DNA of 64,000 bases from NCBI GenBank assembly GCA_937927915.1, contig CALGKB010000004.1:186001-250000 (forward strand). Reading direction: 5' to 3'. This DNA comes from an uncultured Pseudanabaenaceae cyanobacterium. Lineage in GTDB: Bacteria > Cyanobacteriota > Cyanobacteriia > Pseudanabaenales > Pseudanabaenaceae. The translations under genes and the position numbers were made by a program. The notes under the pieces were generated by a model. That model worked only from the letters and a program-made list of their open reading frames with translations, ran no database searches and was not told the DNA's origin. Shown here piece by piece: positions 39,379-55,732 of the stretch (the first letter of the stretch is position 1; every line of letters starts with the position of its first letter).

Positions 39379-40035
39379 ATGGTGATTTCTGCTCCTCCCA
39401 CACACCCGCTATTACTAGGAGAAAAACGGGTGACTCTCCACCATTTGACCTGGCAATCCTATCAACAAATCCTACAGGCTCTCCCCCACAGTCGGGCAGC
39501 AAAGCTCACCTACGATCGCGGTGTTTTGGAAATTACTATGCCCTTAGAAGAACACGAGTCATTTAGTGAATTGCTTGGTTTATTCGTGCGTATTCTGGTG
39601 GTAGAGATGGGTTACAAGCTCAAGTCCTTACGGTCTACTACTCTGAATCGTCAGGATTTACAAAGGGGAGCAGAACCTGACAACGCTTACTACATTCAAA
39701 ATCAACCACAGGTAGCAGGGCGTAAGATAGATTTACACTCTGACCCTCCCCCCGACTTAGTGATAGAAGTGGATATTGCTCATACGGATATTGACAAAAA
39801 CAATCTCTATGCTGCTTTGGGCGTGCCCGAACTTTGGCGGTTTAATGGTCAAGAATGGCGGATTTGGCAGTTAGTAGAGGGGGTTTATCAAGAATGCGAT
39901 CGCTCCCCCACTTTTCCCTGGGTAAAAAAGGAATATCTCTATAATTTCTTGGCAGAAGCACAACAGGATGAGGTCTTAGCAGAACAAAACTGGCGCAGGT
40001 TTATTCGGGACCATTTAGGACAAGAATCACTATGA
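39379..40035 (+). CDS. Uma2 family putative endonuclease, copy 1
   Basis: A 218-residue protein of the Uma2 (DUF820) family, which has a PD-(D/E)xK nuclease-like fold and is greatly expanded in cyanobacteria. LTYDRGVLEITMPLEEHE, PDNAYYIQN and PPDLVIEVDIAHTDID hold the putative acidic core residues. The function of these proteins is unsettled. The next gene is a close relative of the same length, overlapping in ATGA. Confidence 0.88.
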   Translation: MVISAPPTHPLLLGEKRVTLHHLTWQSYQQILQALPHSRAAKLTYDRGVLEITMPLEEHESFSELLGLFVRILVVEMGYKLKSLRSTTLNRQDLQRGAEPDNAYYIQNQPQVAGRKIDLHSDPPPDLVIEVDIAHTDIDKNNLYAALGVPELWRFNGQEWRIWQLVEGVYQECDRSPTFPWVKKEYLYNFLAEAQQDEVLAEQNWRRFIRDHLGQESL

Positions 40036-40644
40036 AGACTATTTCTTTACCCCCGCTAGAAACGATGGGGGAAAAACGGGTGACTCTCCACCATTTGACC
40101 TGGCAATCCTATCAACAAATCCTACAGGCTCTCCCCCACAGTCGGGCGGCGCGACTCACCTACGATCGTGGTGTTTTGGAAATTACTATGCCTTTACAAG
40201 ACCATGAATTTTTTGTCCGTCTCCTGGAGCGATTCATCATAATTTTGGTTGTAGAGATGGGTATGAAGGTGAAGACAATGGGTTCCGCAACGATCGATCG
40301 GGAGGACTTACAGCGGGGAGCAGAGCCAGATTGTGCCTACTACATACAAAACTATGCCCAAGTAGCGGGACGACAGGTCAATTTTGCCAGCGATCCTCCC
40401 CCTGATTTAGTAGTAGAAGTAGATATTACCCACACGGATATTGATAAAAATCTTTTTTATGCTGTTTTGGGTGTGCCCGAACTTTGGCGGTTTAATGGTC
40501 AAGAATGGCGGATTTGGCAGTTAGTAGAGGGGGTTTATCAAGAATGCGATCGCTCCCCTACTTTCCCCTGGGTAAAAAAGGAATATCTCTATAATTTCTT
40601 GGCAGCAGCACAACAGGATGAGGTCTTAGCAGAACAAAACTGGC
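39421..40644 (+). repeat. Tandem duplication of the Uma2 gene, offset 650 bases
   Basis: Bases 39421-39497 equal 40071-40147 without a mismatch, and similarity continues to about 39540/40190. Bases 39822-39908 equal 40472-40558 without a mismatch, and near-identity continues to about 39994/40644. The intervening 280 bases are clearly diverged. The constant offset shows a simple tandem duplication without indels in these blocks. Confidence 0.9.
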
Positions 40645-40688
40645 GTCAGTTTGTACGGGACTATCTAAGTCAACAAAAATCAGACTAG
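40032..40688 (+). CDS. Uma2 family putative endonuclease, copy 2
   Basis: A 218-residue paralogue of the preceding gene, of equal length. Both ends are almost identical to copy 1, while residues about 55-145 have many differences (for example FFVRLLERFIIILVVEMGMKV). The core motifs PDCAYYIQN and PPDLVVEVDI are kept. The start overlaps the first copy in ATGA, so both are probably translated from one message. Its last nine bases overlap the convergent maf gene. Confidence 0.88.
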   Translation: MKTISLPPLETMGEKRVTLHHLTWQSYQQILQALPHSRAARLTYDRGVLEITMPLQDHEFFVRLLERFIIILVVEMGMKVKTMGSATIDREDLQRGAEPDCAYYIQNYAQVAGRQVNFASDPPPDLVVEVDITHTDIDKNLFYAVLGVPELWRFNGQEWRIWQLVEGVYQECDRSPTFPWVKKEYLYNFLAAAQQDEVLAEQNWRQFVRDYLSQQKSD

Positions 40689-43653: not shown

Positions 43654-46194
43654 ATGCGCGCAATTGTCATGGCAGGGGGATCGGGTACACGCCTGCGCCC
43701 CCTCACGTGTGACCTCCCCAAACCAATGGTGCCCATCCTCAACCGCCCGATCGTGGGGCACTTAGTCAACTTATTGCGACAACATGGCATCAAGGAAATT
43801 ATCCTCACCCTCCACTTTATGCCGGACGCCATTCGCAACTATTTTGGTGACGGGAGTGAATGGGGGGTGACCTTTCACTATGTGGTGGAGGAAGAACAGC
43901 CCCTGGGAACAGCGGGTTCCGTTAAAAATGTAGAAAGTCTCCTGACGGATACCTTTGTGGTGGTCAGTGGAGACAGTGTCACGGATGTGGACTTGACAGA
44001 GGCAATCAAATTTCACCGCGCCAAGCGATCGGCGGCAACTCTAGTGCTACGGCGGGTAACTGACCCCATGGCGTTTGGGGTAGTGATTACAGATAGTGAA
44101 GGCAGAATCCTGCGCTTTTTGGAAAAGCCTGCCCAGAGTGAAGTATTTTCTGACACTGTCAACACGGGGATTTACATCCTGGAACCCAGTGTGCTGCAGC
44201 ATTTGCCCCCTAATACCCCCTCTGATTTTTCCCAAGACCTCTTCCCCGTGCTCCTAGCAAAGGGTGTACCCATGTATGGCTATATTACTGATGCCTACTG
44301 GTGCGATGTGGGTTCCCTGGAGGCTTACCGTCAGGCACAGTACGATGCCATTCGCGGACGTGTCCACCTGCAGTTGGATTATCTGCAAACCCGCACGGGG
44401 CTGTGGGTAGGGCACAACACCATCATTGACCCGACGGCAAAAATTGAAACTCCCTCTATGATTGGGGATAACTGCTACATTGGACCCCACGTCAGTATTG
44501 CCGCCGGCACAATTATTGGCAACCATGTCACCGTAGAAGCCTACGCCGATTTACAACGCCCGATCATCGGCAATGGGGTGTTTGTGGGAGAGGAAAGCCA
44601 TCTCTGGTCCTGCACGATCGGTCGCAATGTACGGATTGGTCGCCGCAGTCACATCATGGAAGGGGCAGTGATTGGGGCAGAATGCACGATCGGGGAGGAA
44701 GCTTGCATTTTAACCAATGTACGGGTGTGGCCCAGCAAGCAGATTGAACCGGGGGCATCCCTCAACCACAATCTCATTTGGGGTGCCATCGCTCGGCGCA
44801 ACCTGTTTGGGCAACGGGGGGTGAGTGGCATTGCCAATGTGGACATCACACCGGAATTTGCAGTGAAGTTGGGGGCTGCCTACGGCGCTACTCTCAAACC
44901 CGGCAATCACGTCATGGTCTCCCGGGACCAACGCACAATTTGTCGTATGATCTCCCGCTCCCTTATCTCTGGCTTGATGTCCGTGGGGGTGAACGTGCAT
45001 AACCTAGAGGCAACTGCCATTCCCATAGCCCGCTTCATTGCCCCTCGCCTGGAGACCGCCGGCGGTATTCATGTGCGTATTGACCCCGATCGGGCTGACT
45101 ACATTTTGATTGAATTTTTAGACCGCACGGGCATCAACATCAGCAAGGAGAAGGAGAAAAAGATCGAAAGTACCTACTTCAAAGAGGACTTCCGCCGCGC
45201 CCGCATTGAGGAGATCGGAGACATCAACTACCCTGCCCGTGTCCTGGACTACTATAACAGCGGTTTTGCTGAGCAGTTGAACATTGAAGCCATCCGCCAA
45301 AGTTGCTGTAAAAAGGTGGTGATTGACTATGTCTATGCCGTATCGGGGGCGGTGTTGCCGCGCATCTTAGGTAAATTTGGCTCCGATGTGGTGGTGCTCA
45401 ATGCTAGCCTCAATGAACTAGGGGCTGACCCCAGGACCCGTGTGCGGATGCTAGGGCAATTACAGGAGGTGGTGCGAGCATTACAGGCAAATTTTGGTGC
45501 CCAAGTGTTCGCCAACGGCGAAAAATTTATCCTCGTAGACGAGACGGGCAAGGCGATAGAGGGGGAGGAGTTGACAGGGGTGATGCTGGAAATGGCGCTG
45601 ACGGAGCGACCGGGGGGAACCGTGATTGTACCTGTGAATGTATCGGCGATGGCAGAGGCGATCGCTAGTCGCCATCAGGGGCAGGTCATTCGCACCAAGG
45701 CTAATCCCAGTGCCGTGATGAGTGGTGCCCTCAGCCATAGCAACGCTGTGATCTGTGGCTGCAGCGAGATGGGATTTATCTTTCCCCAACTGCATTTTGG
45801 TTTTGATGCCATGTTTGCCATCGCCAAGATCATCGAGTGGCTGACCGTACAACAACGGACCCTGGGGGAAGTACGCATGTCTTTGCCCCGTTTCCACCAC
45901 CAACTGCGGACTGTCCGCTGTCCCTGGTCCATCAAGGGTTCCCTCATGCGCCACCTAGTGGAATCACAAAATCCGGAGTTCATCGAGCTGATCGATGGGG
46001 TCAAAATTCTCAATAACCACAACAACTGGGTGTTGATCCTACCAGATGCCTACGAACCCGCTGTCCATATCTACGCCAGCAGCGATCGGGAGGACTGGGT
46101 TGCCCAACAAATTAAGCAATACCAAACCCACGTGGAATCCTTCTGCCGCCTACAGAATGCCCTCTCCCAGGATAGCTCCCTGCTGGAAGTTTAG
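43654..46194 (+). CDS. Mannose-1-phosphate guanylyltransferase / phosphomannomutase-like fusion
   Basis: An 846-residue protein of three parts. Residues 1-235 form a nucleotidyltransferase with MAGGSGTRLRPLTCDLPKPM. Residues about 250-375 are left-handed beta-helix hexapeptide repeats (IGDNCYIGPHVSIAAGTIIG). The rest resembles alpha-D-phosphohexomutases. In that part the loop expected to carry the phosphoserine reads VSRDQRTICRMIS, with Cys430 where Ser would be expected; SGALSHSNAVICGCSEMGF is the late sugar-binding region. It would supply GDP-mannose, but the mutase half may be inactive. The stop overlaps that of the convergent kinase-like gene. Confidence 0.87.
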   Translation: MRAIVMAGGSGTRLRPLTCDLPKPMVPILNRPIVGHLVNLLRQHGIKEIILTLHFMPDAIRNYFGDGSEWGVTFHYVVEEEQPLGTAGSVKNVESLLTDTFVVVSGDSVTDVDLTEAIKFHRAKRSAATLVLRRVTDPMAFGVVITDSEGRILRFLEKPAQSEVFSDTVNTGIYILEPSVLQHLPPNTPSDFSQDLFPVLLAKGVPMYGYITDAYWCDVGSLEAYRQAQYDAIRGRVHLQLDYLQTRTGLWVGHNTIIDPTAKIETPSMIGDNCYIGPHVSIAAGTIIGNHVTVEAYADLQRPIIGNGVFVGEESHLWSCTIGRNVRIGRRSHIMEGAVIGAECTIGEEACILTNVRVWPSKQIEPGASLNHNLIWGAIARRNLFGQRGVSGIANVDITPEFAVKLGAAYGATLKPGNHVMVSRDQRTICRMISRSLISGLMSVGVNVHNLEATAIPIARFIAPRLETAGGIHVRIDPDRADYILIEFLDRTGINISKEKEKKIESTYFKEDFRRARIEEIGDINYPARVLDYYNSGFAEQLNIEAIRQSCCKKVVIDYVYAVSGAVLPRILGKFGSDVVVLNASLNELGADPRTRVRMLGQLQEVVRALQANFGAQVFANGEKFILVDETGKAIEGEELTGVMLEMALTERPGGTVIVPVNVSAMAEAIASRHQGQVIRTKANPSAVMSGALSHSNAVICGCSEMGFIFPQLHFGFDAMFAIAKIIEWLTVQQRTLGEVRMSLPRFHHQLRTVRCPWSIKGSLMRHLVESQNPEFIELIDGVKILNNHNNWVLILPDAYEPAVHIYASSDREDWVAQQIKQYQTHVESFCRLQNALSQDSSLLEV

Positions 46195-47456
46195 ATAGAA
46201 CGATCGATCGGTTCTGGTGGGGGGGATGGTTGGGAGGGTCGTTGTCGTTGCCAGATAATAATACCAGCGAAAATACTTACTCCCAAGACCGTGGCAGCTG
46301 TGATAGTCAAGAGGACAGGGAGGAAATTCTGCCGTTTGGGGGTAGTTTCCCAAAAAGTGCGGTAGTTGCTGTAGGTATTAGGGGTAGTGAAGGAGTCCAC
46401 AACGGTAGCAGCATCCTGGGGATCAAACCAGGCAGTGGGGTTATCTCCTCTGGGGGCATAGACAGTAGGGGCGTCGTCTTTCCCAGGGGTGAACATATCG
46501 CCAGCTCCTGCCCCAGGGGAAAGACTGACAGTAGCAGAGGCATCGGGTTTCGCAGTAATCAGGGAATGGGGATCAAGGACTTGGGTGTCTTGGTCATTCT
46601 CTTGCCGCTGTAAACTGCCAATTACCTGCAAAGCCTGCCATAGTTCCCCCGCCTCGGGGTAGCGTTCCCTCGGGGATTTAGCCAGACAACGCCCCACCAC
46701 CTCCTCTAACTCTGGGGGAAAATGATGACAACCCGATCGTTGCCGCAAAGGGACAGGTGCAGTGGTGGTATGAGCCATCCGCCAGGGCAAACCGTTTTGT
46801 ACCTCTACATTGTAGGGATTAGTGCCACTGAGAATTTCGTAGAGAATTAAACCCAACACATAGACATCCGAGCGGGGGGTTGACTCCTGTTTCTCCACCT
46901 GTTCAGGGGCCACATAGTGCCATTCTCCCTCCACTGCTGTCACTAAAGTTTGCGATTCCTCCCTCTCTCCTTCCCTGATAAAACCAAAATTCAACACCTT
47001 CACCCGATCGTCGGCGGTGACAATAATATGCTCAGGATGCAGTTTTTGGTGGGGCAAGACAACAATCGCGTTCCCCCAGTGGGGCAAATTTACGCCGCGA
47101 TGGGCAGTCTGGAGGGCAAGGCACACCTGTTTTATCAAGGTCAGGGCACGATCGGGGCTGAGGGTGGCTGCTAGTTTAGCTAGGGTCTGCCCCTCCACAT
47201 ATTCCATAGCATAAAAATAGTGTCCCGTCTTGGTTGTACCGTAGTCCTGGATGGCGGCTATGTAGTCATTAGCGATCGCAGCGTAGAGAGCCATCTCATA
47301 GGTGAAGTCAGGGTTGTCCTGGGGGCAGCGATGTAACAGTTTGACCGCCACTCTGTCACCACGCCAGAGGTCCAGAGCTAAATAGACCCGACCGCCGAGG
47401 GGTTGCAGCAATTGATAGCGATTATCGGTATCAAGGAGTTCCGCCATTCTCTGCAT
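46191..47456 (-). CDS. Hanks-type kinase-like protein, predicted pseudokinase
   Basis: About 421 residues from ATG 47456. The N-terminal 280 residues follow the Ser/Thr kinase fold: VAVKLL (Lys39), MEYVEGQTL hinge, APEQV and SDVYVLGLILYEILSG. However, the glycine loop is shortened (PLGGRVYLAL), the catalytic HRDxKxxN reads HQKLHPEH (136-143, no Asp), and DFG reads NFG (Asn156). A membrane segment near residues 380-400 (TITAATVLGVSIFAGIII) follows a low-complexity linker, with a short Pro-rich tail. It is probably a membrane-bound scaffold or sensor without phosphotransfer. Confidence 0.85.
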   Translation of the reverse strand: MQRMAELLDTDNRYQLLQPLGGRVYLALDLWRGDRVAVKLLHRCPQDNPDFTYEMALYAAIANDYIAAIQDYGTTKTGHYFYAMEYVEGQTLAKLAATLSPDRALTLIKQVCLALQTAHRGVNLPHWGNAIVVLPHQKLHPEHIIVTADDRVKVLNFGFIREGEREESQTLVTAVEGEWHYVAPEQVEKQESTPRSDVYVLGLILYEILSGTNPYNVEVQNGLPWRMAHTTTAPVPLRQRSGCHHFPPELEEVVGRCLAKSPRERYPEAGELWQALQVIGSLQRQENDQDTQVLDPHSLITAKPDASATVSLSPGAGAGDMFTPGKDDAPTVYAPRGDNPTAWFDPQDAATVVDSFTTPNTYSNYRTFWETTPKRQNFLPVLLTITAATVLGVSIFAGIIIWQRQRPSQPSPPPEPIDRSI

Positions 47457-53107: not shown

Positions 53108-55732
53108 ATGTCTTTTGTACCTTTACACAACCACAGTGAATACAGTCTGTTAGACGGGGCGAGTCAAATCCCCCAACTCATCGATCGGATTGTGGAACTG
53201 GGGATGCCTGCCATTGCCCTTACGGATCATGGGGTGATGTATGGTGCCATCGAGTTATATAAAACCTGCAAGGCAAAGGGAATCAAGCCCATCATTGGCA
53301 ATGAAATGTATGTCATCAATGGGGATATAACAGTCAAAAGACCAAAGGTGCGAAAATACCACCAGGTGGTGTTGGCAAAGGATACAGAGGGGTATCGCCA
53401 TCTGGTTAAGTTAACGACGATTTCTCATCTGCATGGCTTTCAAGGTACGGGTATCTATGCGCGCCCCTGTATCAATAAAGAACTGTTGGAGAAATACCGA
53501 TCGGGTTTGATCGTTACCTCTGGTTGTTTGGCGGGGGAAGTACCGCAGGCAATTCTGCAAAATCGCTTGGATATAGCCAGGGAAGTGGCAGCTTGGTACA
53601 AAGAAGTATTTGGGGATGATTACTATCTGGAAATTCAGGACCATGGTTATCCCGAAGACCGCATTGTCAATGTGGAAATAGTGCGCATTAGCCGCGAATT
53701 GGGAATTAAAATTATTGCCACTAACGATTCCCATTTTATCGGCTGTTATGATGTAGAAGCTCATGATGCCCTCCTCTGTATTCAGATTGGCAAGTCCATT
53801 AGGGAATTAAAACGCCTGCGCTATTCTGGTACAGAATATGTCAAATCCAGGGCAGAAATGGCGAAATTATTTCGCGATCACTTACCACCAGAAATCATCG
53901 AAGAGGCACTCAACAATACCCTGGAGGTAGCAGACAAAATTAAGGACTATCAAATCCTCGGCGAACCGAAAGCCCCCGATTTCCCTGTCCCCCCTGGCTA
54001 TAATCCTGATACTTATTTGGAGGCAAAGGCGTGGGAAGGGCTGAAACAGAGATTGCATGCTCAGACAAAGCAAGATATACCAGAAGATTATCAACAGAGA
54101 TTACAGCGGGAATTAGGTGTCATTCAACAAAAGGGATTTTCTAATTATTTTCTGGTGGTGTGGGACTACATTCGCTATGCCAGGGAACACAAGATTCCTG
54201 TGGGACCAGGGCGTGGTTCAGCGGCGGGTTCTTTGGTGGCCTATGCCCTAGGAATTACCAACATTGACCCTATTCACCACGGCTTGCTGTTTGAAAGATT
54301 TCTCAATCCTGAACGCAAATCCATGCCTGATATTGACACGGACTTCTGTATGGACCACCGTGATCAGCTCATTCGCTATGTGACAGAGAAATACGGGCAG
54401 GAAAGGGTGGCACAGATTGTTACCTTTAACCGCCTGACTTCTAAAGCAGTGGTGAAAGATGTCGGTAGAGTGTTAGACATTCCCTACAGCGATACGGATA
54501 AGATGGCAAAGTTAATTCCGGTGTCGCGGGGCAAACCTGCTCCCCTCAAGGAGATGATCGGTGAGGAAACTCCTGCTCCTGAGTTCAAAGAAAGATATGA
54601 GAAAGACCCCCTTGTCAAACAGTGGATTGATATGGCAATGCGGCTGGAGGGGGTAAACAAAAGTACAGGAGTGCACGCGGCGGGGGTAGTGATTGCTCCT
54701 ATGCCTTTGGATGAGCTAGTGCCTTTACAACTGAGCAATGAAGGTTTGATCATGACGCAATACCCCATGGAGGACTTGGAGTCCTTGGGTCTGTTGAAGA
54801 TGGACTTCCTGGGGCTGCGAAACTTGACGATCATTCAAAACACGATCGATCTAATCAAAAAACGCCAACCTGATTTTGATTTCAGCCAGGTAGTGCCTGA
54901 CCAACCAACGCCGGAAAATGAAGCGACCTACAAATTGCTGGCAAGGGGGGAATTAGAGGGCATCTTTCAGTTGGAATCAACGGGCATGAAGCAGATTGTG
55001 AAAGACTTAAAACCCTCTAACATTGAAGACATTTCTTCCATTTTGGCGCTCTATCGTCCTGGTCCCTTGGATGCGGGGCTAATTCCCAAGTTTATCAATC
55101 GCAAACACGGCAAAGAACCCCTGGAGTACGCCCACAAGAGCTTAGAGCCAATTTTGCGGGATACCTATTCCATTCTTGTCTATCAAGAACAGATCATGCG
55201 TATTGCCCAGGACTTGGCGGGTTATTCCCTAGGGGAAGCAGATTTACTGCGGCGGGCGATGGGGAAAAAGAAACCGGAGGAGATGGAAAAACAGCGGGAG
55301 AAATTCCTAGACGGGGCGGCAAAAAACGGTATTCCTGCCAAGATTGCCAAAGAACTGTTTGATCAGATGGTGATGTTTGCGGAGTATTGTCTCAGTTATG
55401 ATACTTTGGTCTTGACGGTGGAGTACGGCTGGTTACCGATCGGTCATATTGTCACAGAACGCCTTGCCTGTCATGTCTATTCTCTGTCCCCCCAGGGTTT
55501 TATCTATGCTCAACCCATAGTGCAATGGCATGAACGGGGCACCCAACCTGTCTTTGCCTACACTTTGGCAGATGGCACGGTGATTGAAGCTACGCCTGAC
55601 CACAAATTTATGACCACTGGGGGGGAAATGTTACCGATCGAGCAAATTTGGCAGGAGAGTTTGTCTTTAATGACTGTGGAAGACTTACAAAAACAGCAAG
55701 ATGTATTCCCCTTGGTTACAAGTCCTGCCTAA
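53108..55732 (+). CDS. dnaE: DNA polymerase III alpha subunit, N-terminal part with split intein-N
   Basis: The first half of the replicative polymerase, 874 residues. The PHP domain (1-200) starts [17 protein letters not shown], and the palm shows [13 protein letters not shown] (near 407) and [10 protein letters not shown]. The polymerase part ends at Tyr760 in MVMFAEY. Residues 761-874 are the N-intein, starting [14 protein letters not shown], with the TPDHKF block B motif. Splicing with a DnaE-C half encoded elsewhere makes full-length DnaE. The last 32 bases overlap the next gene in another frame. Confidence 0.97.
55388..55732 (+). other. Split DnaE intein, N-terminal fragment (114 residues)
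   Basis: The intein starts at Cys761 (codon 55388-55390) after the conserved extein end FAEY. Block [20 protein letters not shown], the middle QPVFAYTL and block [11 protein letters not shown] match the cyanobacterial DnaE family (Npu, Ssp). The ending [21 protein letters not shown] is longer than in the Npu fragment. The C-terminal partner is outside the window, so trans-splicing is inferred from the family. Confidence 0.95.

Follow-up and report, generated by a model that had tools for sequence, protein, structure and literature searches.

A gene on the minus strand of a 64,000-nucleotide stretch of DNA from an uncultured Pseudanabaenaceae cyanobacterium (contig CALGKB010000004.1, positions 186,001 to 250,000; hereafter the window) encodes what is, judged by its sequence, a previously undescribed bacterial pseudokinase. 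We assign a probability of roughly 60% to the reading that this is a dead, membrane-anchored Hanks-type pseudokinase, which arose within its genus by duplication and rapid divergence and serves an active Hanks kinase as a scaffold or as an allosteric partner. The grounds for this reading are a predicted kinase fold, the fixed loss of residues for phosphotransfer, a long linker, a predicted membrane segment, a conserved tail and purifying selection. The gene (46191-47456, stop codon included) starts with an ATG at 47456, supported by an orthologue (L018) that begins at the same place, and ends with a stop codon at 46191-46193, giving a product of 421 amino acids. The first-pass annotation had described a clear kinase fold followed by a membrane segment and a tail, and our searches bear out each of these elements: the Pfam Pkinase model matches with 87.8 bits (E 1e-24, cut-off 31.7), PF00069 and PF07714 being the only Pfam models to reach E 0.001, and a sequence comparison with solved structures places PknB nearest (E 1.7e-26). 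Eight NCBIfam models also match, each under its curated cut-off, the top one being PknB_PASTA_kin with 168.3 bits against a cut-off of 450. The kinase-fold domain spans residues 12-285 (46602-47423; Pfam Pkinase 22-266, PknB alignment 12-275, subfamily profile to about 285), and is followed by a Thr-rich linker of about 90 residues (residues 286-382; 46311-46601), a single predicted membrane segment (residues 383-401; 46254-46310) and a proline-rich tail of about 20 residues that ends in PIDRSI (residues 416-421; 46194-46211). The membrane segment is the only hydrophobic segment of the protein, with a 19-residue mean of 2.26 (residues counted from the ATG, the numbering of the scan being offset by 24 codons upstream of it), and falls within a helix at residues 373-405 of the structure model.

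A comparison with intact kinases of the same subfamily showed that: 1) The Asp of HRD, the Asn of the catalytic loop and the Asp of DFG are replaced by Lys138, His143 and Asn156, at exactly the residue numbers that the first-pass annotation had given. HQKLHPEH thus stands for HRDLKPEN (residues 136-143; 47028-47051; seven of the eight positions identical in all three orthologues) and NFG for DFG (residues 156-158; 46983-46991; all three orthologues). 2) Beyond these earlier-noted changes, the Lys of the catalytic loop is replaced by His140, the Arg of HRD by Gln137, and the Thr of the P+1 loop, which we take to match Thr201 of PKA, by Glu178 (46923-46925). 3) The glycine loop, PLGGRVYLA (residues 19-27; 47376-47402), is indeed shortened as first described, being four residues shorter than that of the intact paralogue, with the corresponding alignment columns absent. 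4) The position of the alpha-C Glu holds E, A or K across the three orthologues, i.e. it is not kept. 5) The beta3 Lys39 of the VAVK motif (47340-47342) is kept in all three. The Asp/Lys/Asn/Asp quartet is present in every one of the 88 subfamily rows with letters at these sites, the set of intact relatives consisting of 89 rows, one of which is gapped at the C-lobe sites. Set aside by name before this count were the three pseudokinase rows, a degenerate kinase of G216 (L099 minus strand, L167) and all rows of L051 (one degenerate and one intact), together with other out-of-subfamily kinases, short rows and duplicates. Of all 121 matched stretches, 113 have Asp at the position of the catalytic Asp, three have Lys, two Glu (a single gene, counted twice) and one Asn, the other two being gapped there; for the catalytic and P+1 loops taken together, the three pseudokinases have the set (Lys,His,Glu) and 110 of the 121 stretches have (Asp,Lys,Thr/Ser). 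All five changed catalytic residues of the C-lobe share the new residue in the three orthologues, with 129 of the 285 domain columns being invariant; the chance of such agreement is about 0.02 if sites are alike, a weak figure given that such sites are slow anyway. Further, 51 of the 84 columns that are at least 85% conserved in the 89 intact rows are kept in all three pseudokinases, and hence the kinase fold is preserved. The HRD Asp, the Asn of the catalytic loop and the DFG Asp, which mark a PknB-type Hanks kinase as active, are all absent. PMC12599244 defines a bacterial Ser/Thr pseudokinase by sequence as a kinase fold that has lost one or more of the beta3 Lys, the HRD Asp and the DFG Asp; here the HRD and DFG Asp are replaced in all three orthologues. 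At this level of evidence the pseudokinase status is well supported.

The pseudokinase is present in all three genomes of the genus examined, the two other copies being 64% and 53% identical to the window protein, and all three read HQKLHP[DE]H and NFGF. Orthologues with intact HRD and DFG, which would have contradicted the first-pass annotation, did not turn up: both orthologues found carry HQK...H and NFG at these sites. In 388 genomes of the class, an even sample of a larger group, a DNA pattern encoding HQKLHP[DE]H was recovered in three, all of the same genus, and the reversed-pattern control had no match among the matches listed. A profile search of these genomes at E 1e-20 gave 776-835 bits for the three pseudokinases versus 234 for the next match. 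A search of genome contigs, seeded with exact 8-residue stretches of the window protein, recovered six loci with 25-30% identity and no orthologue. Because the orthologues share the changes, and the kinases closest to them outside the orthologous group have intact motifs, the loss is a fixed trait of the genus rather than an isolated defect or a sequencing error; the identical changes in three species together with purifying selection likewise led us to reject a pseudogene.

In a tree of 112 kinase domains the three pseudokinases form one branch (support 100/100) on a long stem (1.16). The branch is nested in a cyanobacterial subfamily to which kinB and kinC, two intact paralogues from the same genomes, belong as well. 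In the genome of the window these nearest intact paralogues lie at G000 C7:17788-18648 (kinB) and G000 C2:265875-266708 (kinC). Intact cyanobacterial Hanks kinases of this type share about 40% identity with the pseudokinase over the kinase domain and likewise have a C-terminal membrane segment, but unlike it they have an intact HRD or HCD and DFG, a short pre-membrane linker and slower evolution. The source genome contains 14 Pkinase matches over the cut-off, among which the pseudokinase has the lowest score; the catalytic Asp is kept in 13 of them and the DFG Asp in 12. Another kinase of this genome, L013 (G000 C4:179593-180348), combines an intact HRD with NFG for DFG. A grouping of the pseudokinases with a second degenerate kinase, from G216, had support of 88/88 with both branches long, and we did not rely on it. 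This kinase, L167 (G216 C77:6621-7664, minus strand), has PHE and DCG for HRD and DFG in an 873-residue frame, lies on the strand opposite to a neighboring intact kinase (G216 C77:7947-8861) and has 11 Thr sites in its linker by the loose count defined below. The minus-strand frame from 1202 of L051, in a Planctomycetota metagenome-assembled genome, contains a further degenerate kinase domain with HQN and DLM for HRD and DFG.

The reading frame is open in all three species. Between the genome of the window and G002 the ratio of nonsynonymous to synonymous substitution rates (dN/dS) is 0.180 for the pseudokinase (bootstrap 0.121-0.248), 0.056 for kinB, 0.072 for kinC, and 0.034 and 0.014 for the genes on either side. 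These values are approximate, synonymous sites being close to saturation (dS of about 1.2-1.4 for the kinase genes); some comparisons with G001 yielded no finite dS. Protein identity between the same two genomes is 64.7% for the pseudokinase versus 94.8% and 97.2% for the flanking genes. These estimates indicate that the gene is maintained by selection, with its protein evolving about three times faster than the intact paralogues. A remaining view, that it is a decaying duplicate heading for loss, would fit this faster evolution relative to both the neighbors and the two intact paralogues, but is very improbable in light of the open frame in all three species, a dN/dS whose upper bound is 0.248, the identical replacement residues and the conserved C-terminus.

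A structure model generated by AlphaFold2 with six sequences has a mean predicted local distance difference test score (pLDDT) of 64.1 and a predicted TM-score (pTM) of 0.57, with a fair N-lobe and a poor activation segment and linker (residues 294-376 of the latter with pLDDT below 50). The top Foldseek match of the model in the PDB is PknB (E 2.9e-20, TM-score 0.72 by target length). The model supports a kinase fold and nothing finer, the input alignment itself having consisted of kinases. The window protein has three acidic-Thr-Val sites in its linker, and the linkers of the two orthologues are 44.6% and 34.1% identical to it. The best-conserved acidic-Thr-hydrophobic site is DAATVVD (residues 348-354; 46395-46415), where D348, A349 and T351 are found in all three orthologues and the pattern D-A-[AP]-T-[VL]-[VL]-[DE] is present in each. 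Counted loosely (T-[VILM] with an acidic residue among the four preceding positions), such sites number 3 in the window protein, 4 in G001 and 2 in G002, with shuffle P of 0.0175, 0.0255 and 0.052 respectively; these P are uncorrected over 95 linkers, and WD40-like repeats (L107) also scored. Nine intact cyanobacterial kinases (L085, L091, L092, L132, L115, L087, L148, L098 and L162) bear, C-terminal to the kinase domain, 5 to 15 sites resembling D-x-T-[IVL]-x-Q, which in most of them precede a membrane segment; L085 has 14, against a shuffle mean of 0.64. These arrays look like phospho-acceptor or FHA-docking sites and are possibly of greater interest than the pseudokinase itself.

We propose that the ancestor of the pseudokinase was an active kinase of the cyanobacterial subfamily, which would have been duplicated and then have diverged rapidly within the genus. 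Its fold would no longer phosphorylate; instead it may dock on an active Hanks kinase, kinB and kinC being the candidates, and hold or switch that kinase at the membrane. Sites of the acidic-Thr-hydrophobic type in the linker, Thr351 among them, may be targets of phosphorylation in trans, through which the linker could recruit an FHA protein, in the manner of MviN and FhaA. The role would probably be that of a scaffold or regulator rather than of an enzyme. FHA partners could exist, since the source genome has nine FHA matches in eight reading frames, none of which is tied to the pseudokinase gene by any result. Several observations weigh against this proposal. No partner was tied to the pseudokinase in the analysis, and no kinase or FHA gene was recognised beside it by eye among the surrounding window open reading frames (ORFs) that are 80 or more residues long; likewise, searching its own genome for Pkinase and FHA domains gave no neighboring match within 25 kb of the gene. 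The gene order around it is common to the window genome and G002 only, the G001 copy lies on a 10.4 kb contig without a match to any of 12 further window genes compared with it, and only three members of the family were found in the genomes searched. As the beta3 Lys is retained, the protein might still bind nucleotide. The D-x-T-[IVL]-x-Q arrays of active kinases are not kept as such in its linker, and a position matrix for the linker motif, trained on eight intact kinases with the WD40-like repeats of L107 left out by eye, gave P of 0.017 for the window protein, 0.16 for G002 and 1.0 for G001. We do not claim a phospho-acceptor array in the pseudokinase linker, the matrix rising above shuffles only in the window protein.

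A more elaborate form of the proposal, which we offer only tentatively, is that the catalytic site was rebuilt in the ancestor of the genus from an Asp/Lys/Thr to a Lys/His/Glu network, perhaps with Lys138 and Glu178 forming a salt bridge by which the activation segment is held in a single shape. Fixed in this way, the fold would serve an active kinase at the membrane as its dedicated allosteric partner, and the linker would be inherited from kinases with phospho-acceptor arrays for multivalent FHA docking. The Lys138-Glu178 contact is not readable from the model, because residues 158-177 have pLDDT below 50. It is unlikely that the protein is instead a sensor, in which the membrane segment or the tail past it takes a signal that the kinase fold relays by a change of shape or dimerization, without phosphorylation of the linker: the terminal PIDRSI is identical in all three orthologues despite the divergence of the linker, but a proline-rich tail of this size is too small for a folded sensor domain. 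A somewhat weaker candidate is continued nucleotide binding or another chemistry through Lys39 and the new His and Lys residues, comparable to that performed with the kinase fold by SelO and SidJ, as described in PMC12599244. In its favor, Lys39 is invariant, and all three proteins have the same Lys138, His140, His143, Asn156 and Glu178; against it count the deletion of the glycine loop, the loss of a constant alpha-C Glu and the absence of both metal ligands. Finally, some kinases without canonical residues are active and Lys39 is kept, but an unconventional active kinase is hardly credible when the catalytic Asp, the Lys and Asn of the catalytic loop and the DFG Asp are replaced together in all three orthologues.

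The pseudokinase gene and a convergent gene (43654-46194), presumably mannose-1-phosphate guanylyltransferase-like, share four bases at their ends, and the next gene upstream, which we take to be acetolactate synthase-like, begins about 175 bp away on the other strand. In G002 the pseudokinase and acetolactate synthase genes are about 1.6 kb apart, with one more ORF longer than 70 residues between them; a 182-aa ORF in this interval (L067:7793-8341, minus strand) presumably resembles a doubled nitrile-hydratase-type leader peptide. In G001 a 143-residue ORF (L068:4963-5394, minus strand) lies directly upstream of the pseudokinase frame and overlaps it; it has a kinase N-lobe-like start with an intact-looking glycine loop and the beta3 Lys, and no C-lobe. 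Elsewhere in the window, 39379-40688 holds two similar, apparently duplicated 218-aa ORFs in tandem and overlapping, which we assume to be Uma2-like, and 53108-55732 an 874-aa DNA polymerase III alpha-like ORF, the end of which seems to us to resemble the N-half of a split DnaE intein.

The known system closest in spirit to our proposal, MviN (MurJ) of Mycobacterium tuberculosis, is a multi-pass membrane protein, unlike the pseudokinase with its single membrane segment. According to PMC12599244, MviN belongs to the ActPs3 family; it is a pseudokinase of the membrane, and its tail is a substrate of PknB and a binding site for FhaA. The likeness lies in a dead kinase fold on a membrane protein; by the same account MviN has VALT at the beta3 Lys, the pseudokinase keeping VAVK and so departing from the ActPs3 loss of all three motifs, and ActPs3 members differ further in a deletion of the activation loop. 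By analogy, the pseudokinase would be comparable to MviN/FhaA at most in its working, and stands outside that family. The same paper describes the CP1 family as coming from cyanobacteria and proteobacteria, with about 40% of its members being pseudokinases, all of these linked to a COG3899 domain, and with no membrane segments. The pseudokinase is likewise cyanobacterial but, having a membrane segment, does not fit CP1 so described; Pfam shows only kinase models in it, COG itself not having been searched. EssB/YukC of Firmicutes is characterized there as a membrane-anchored pseudokinase scaffold with a degraded glycine loop, and by this description it resembles the pseudokinase in both its anchor and its loop, and differs in being part of type VII secretion and in the beta3 motif LDMR of EssB (PMC12599244). 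Literature searches on cyanobacterial and bacterial pseudokinases turned up no paper on this protein among the matches listed, judged by titles and abstract openings, and the word pseudokinase occurs 0 times in the available part of PMC2877116. We could not place its clade in the published scheme of 42 bacterial serine/threonine kinase families, which is cited in PMC12599244 and built on family-specific residue patterns. The pseudokinase is a small protein with a single membrane segment; the same cell encodes intact paralogues to compare it with, and its fixed substitutions form a compact set, features that make the role of a dead bacterial kinase testable by deletion, pull-down and phosphoproteomics.

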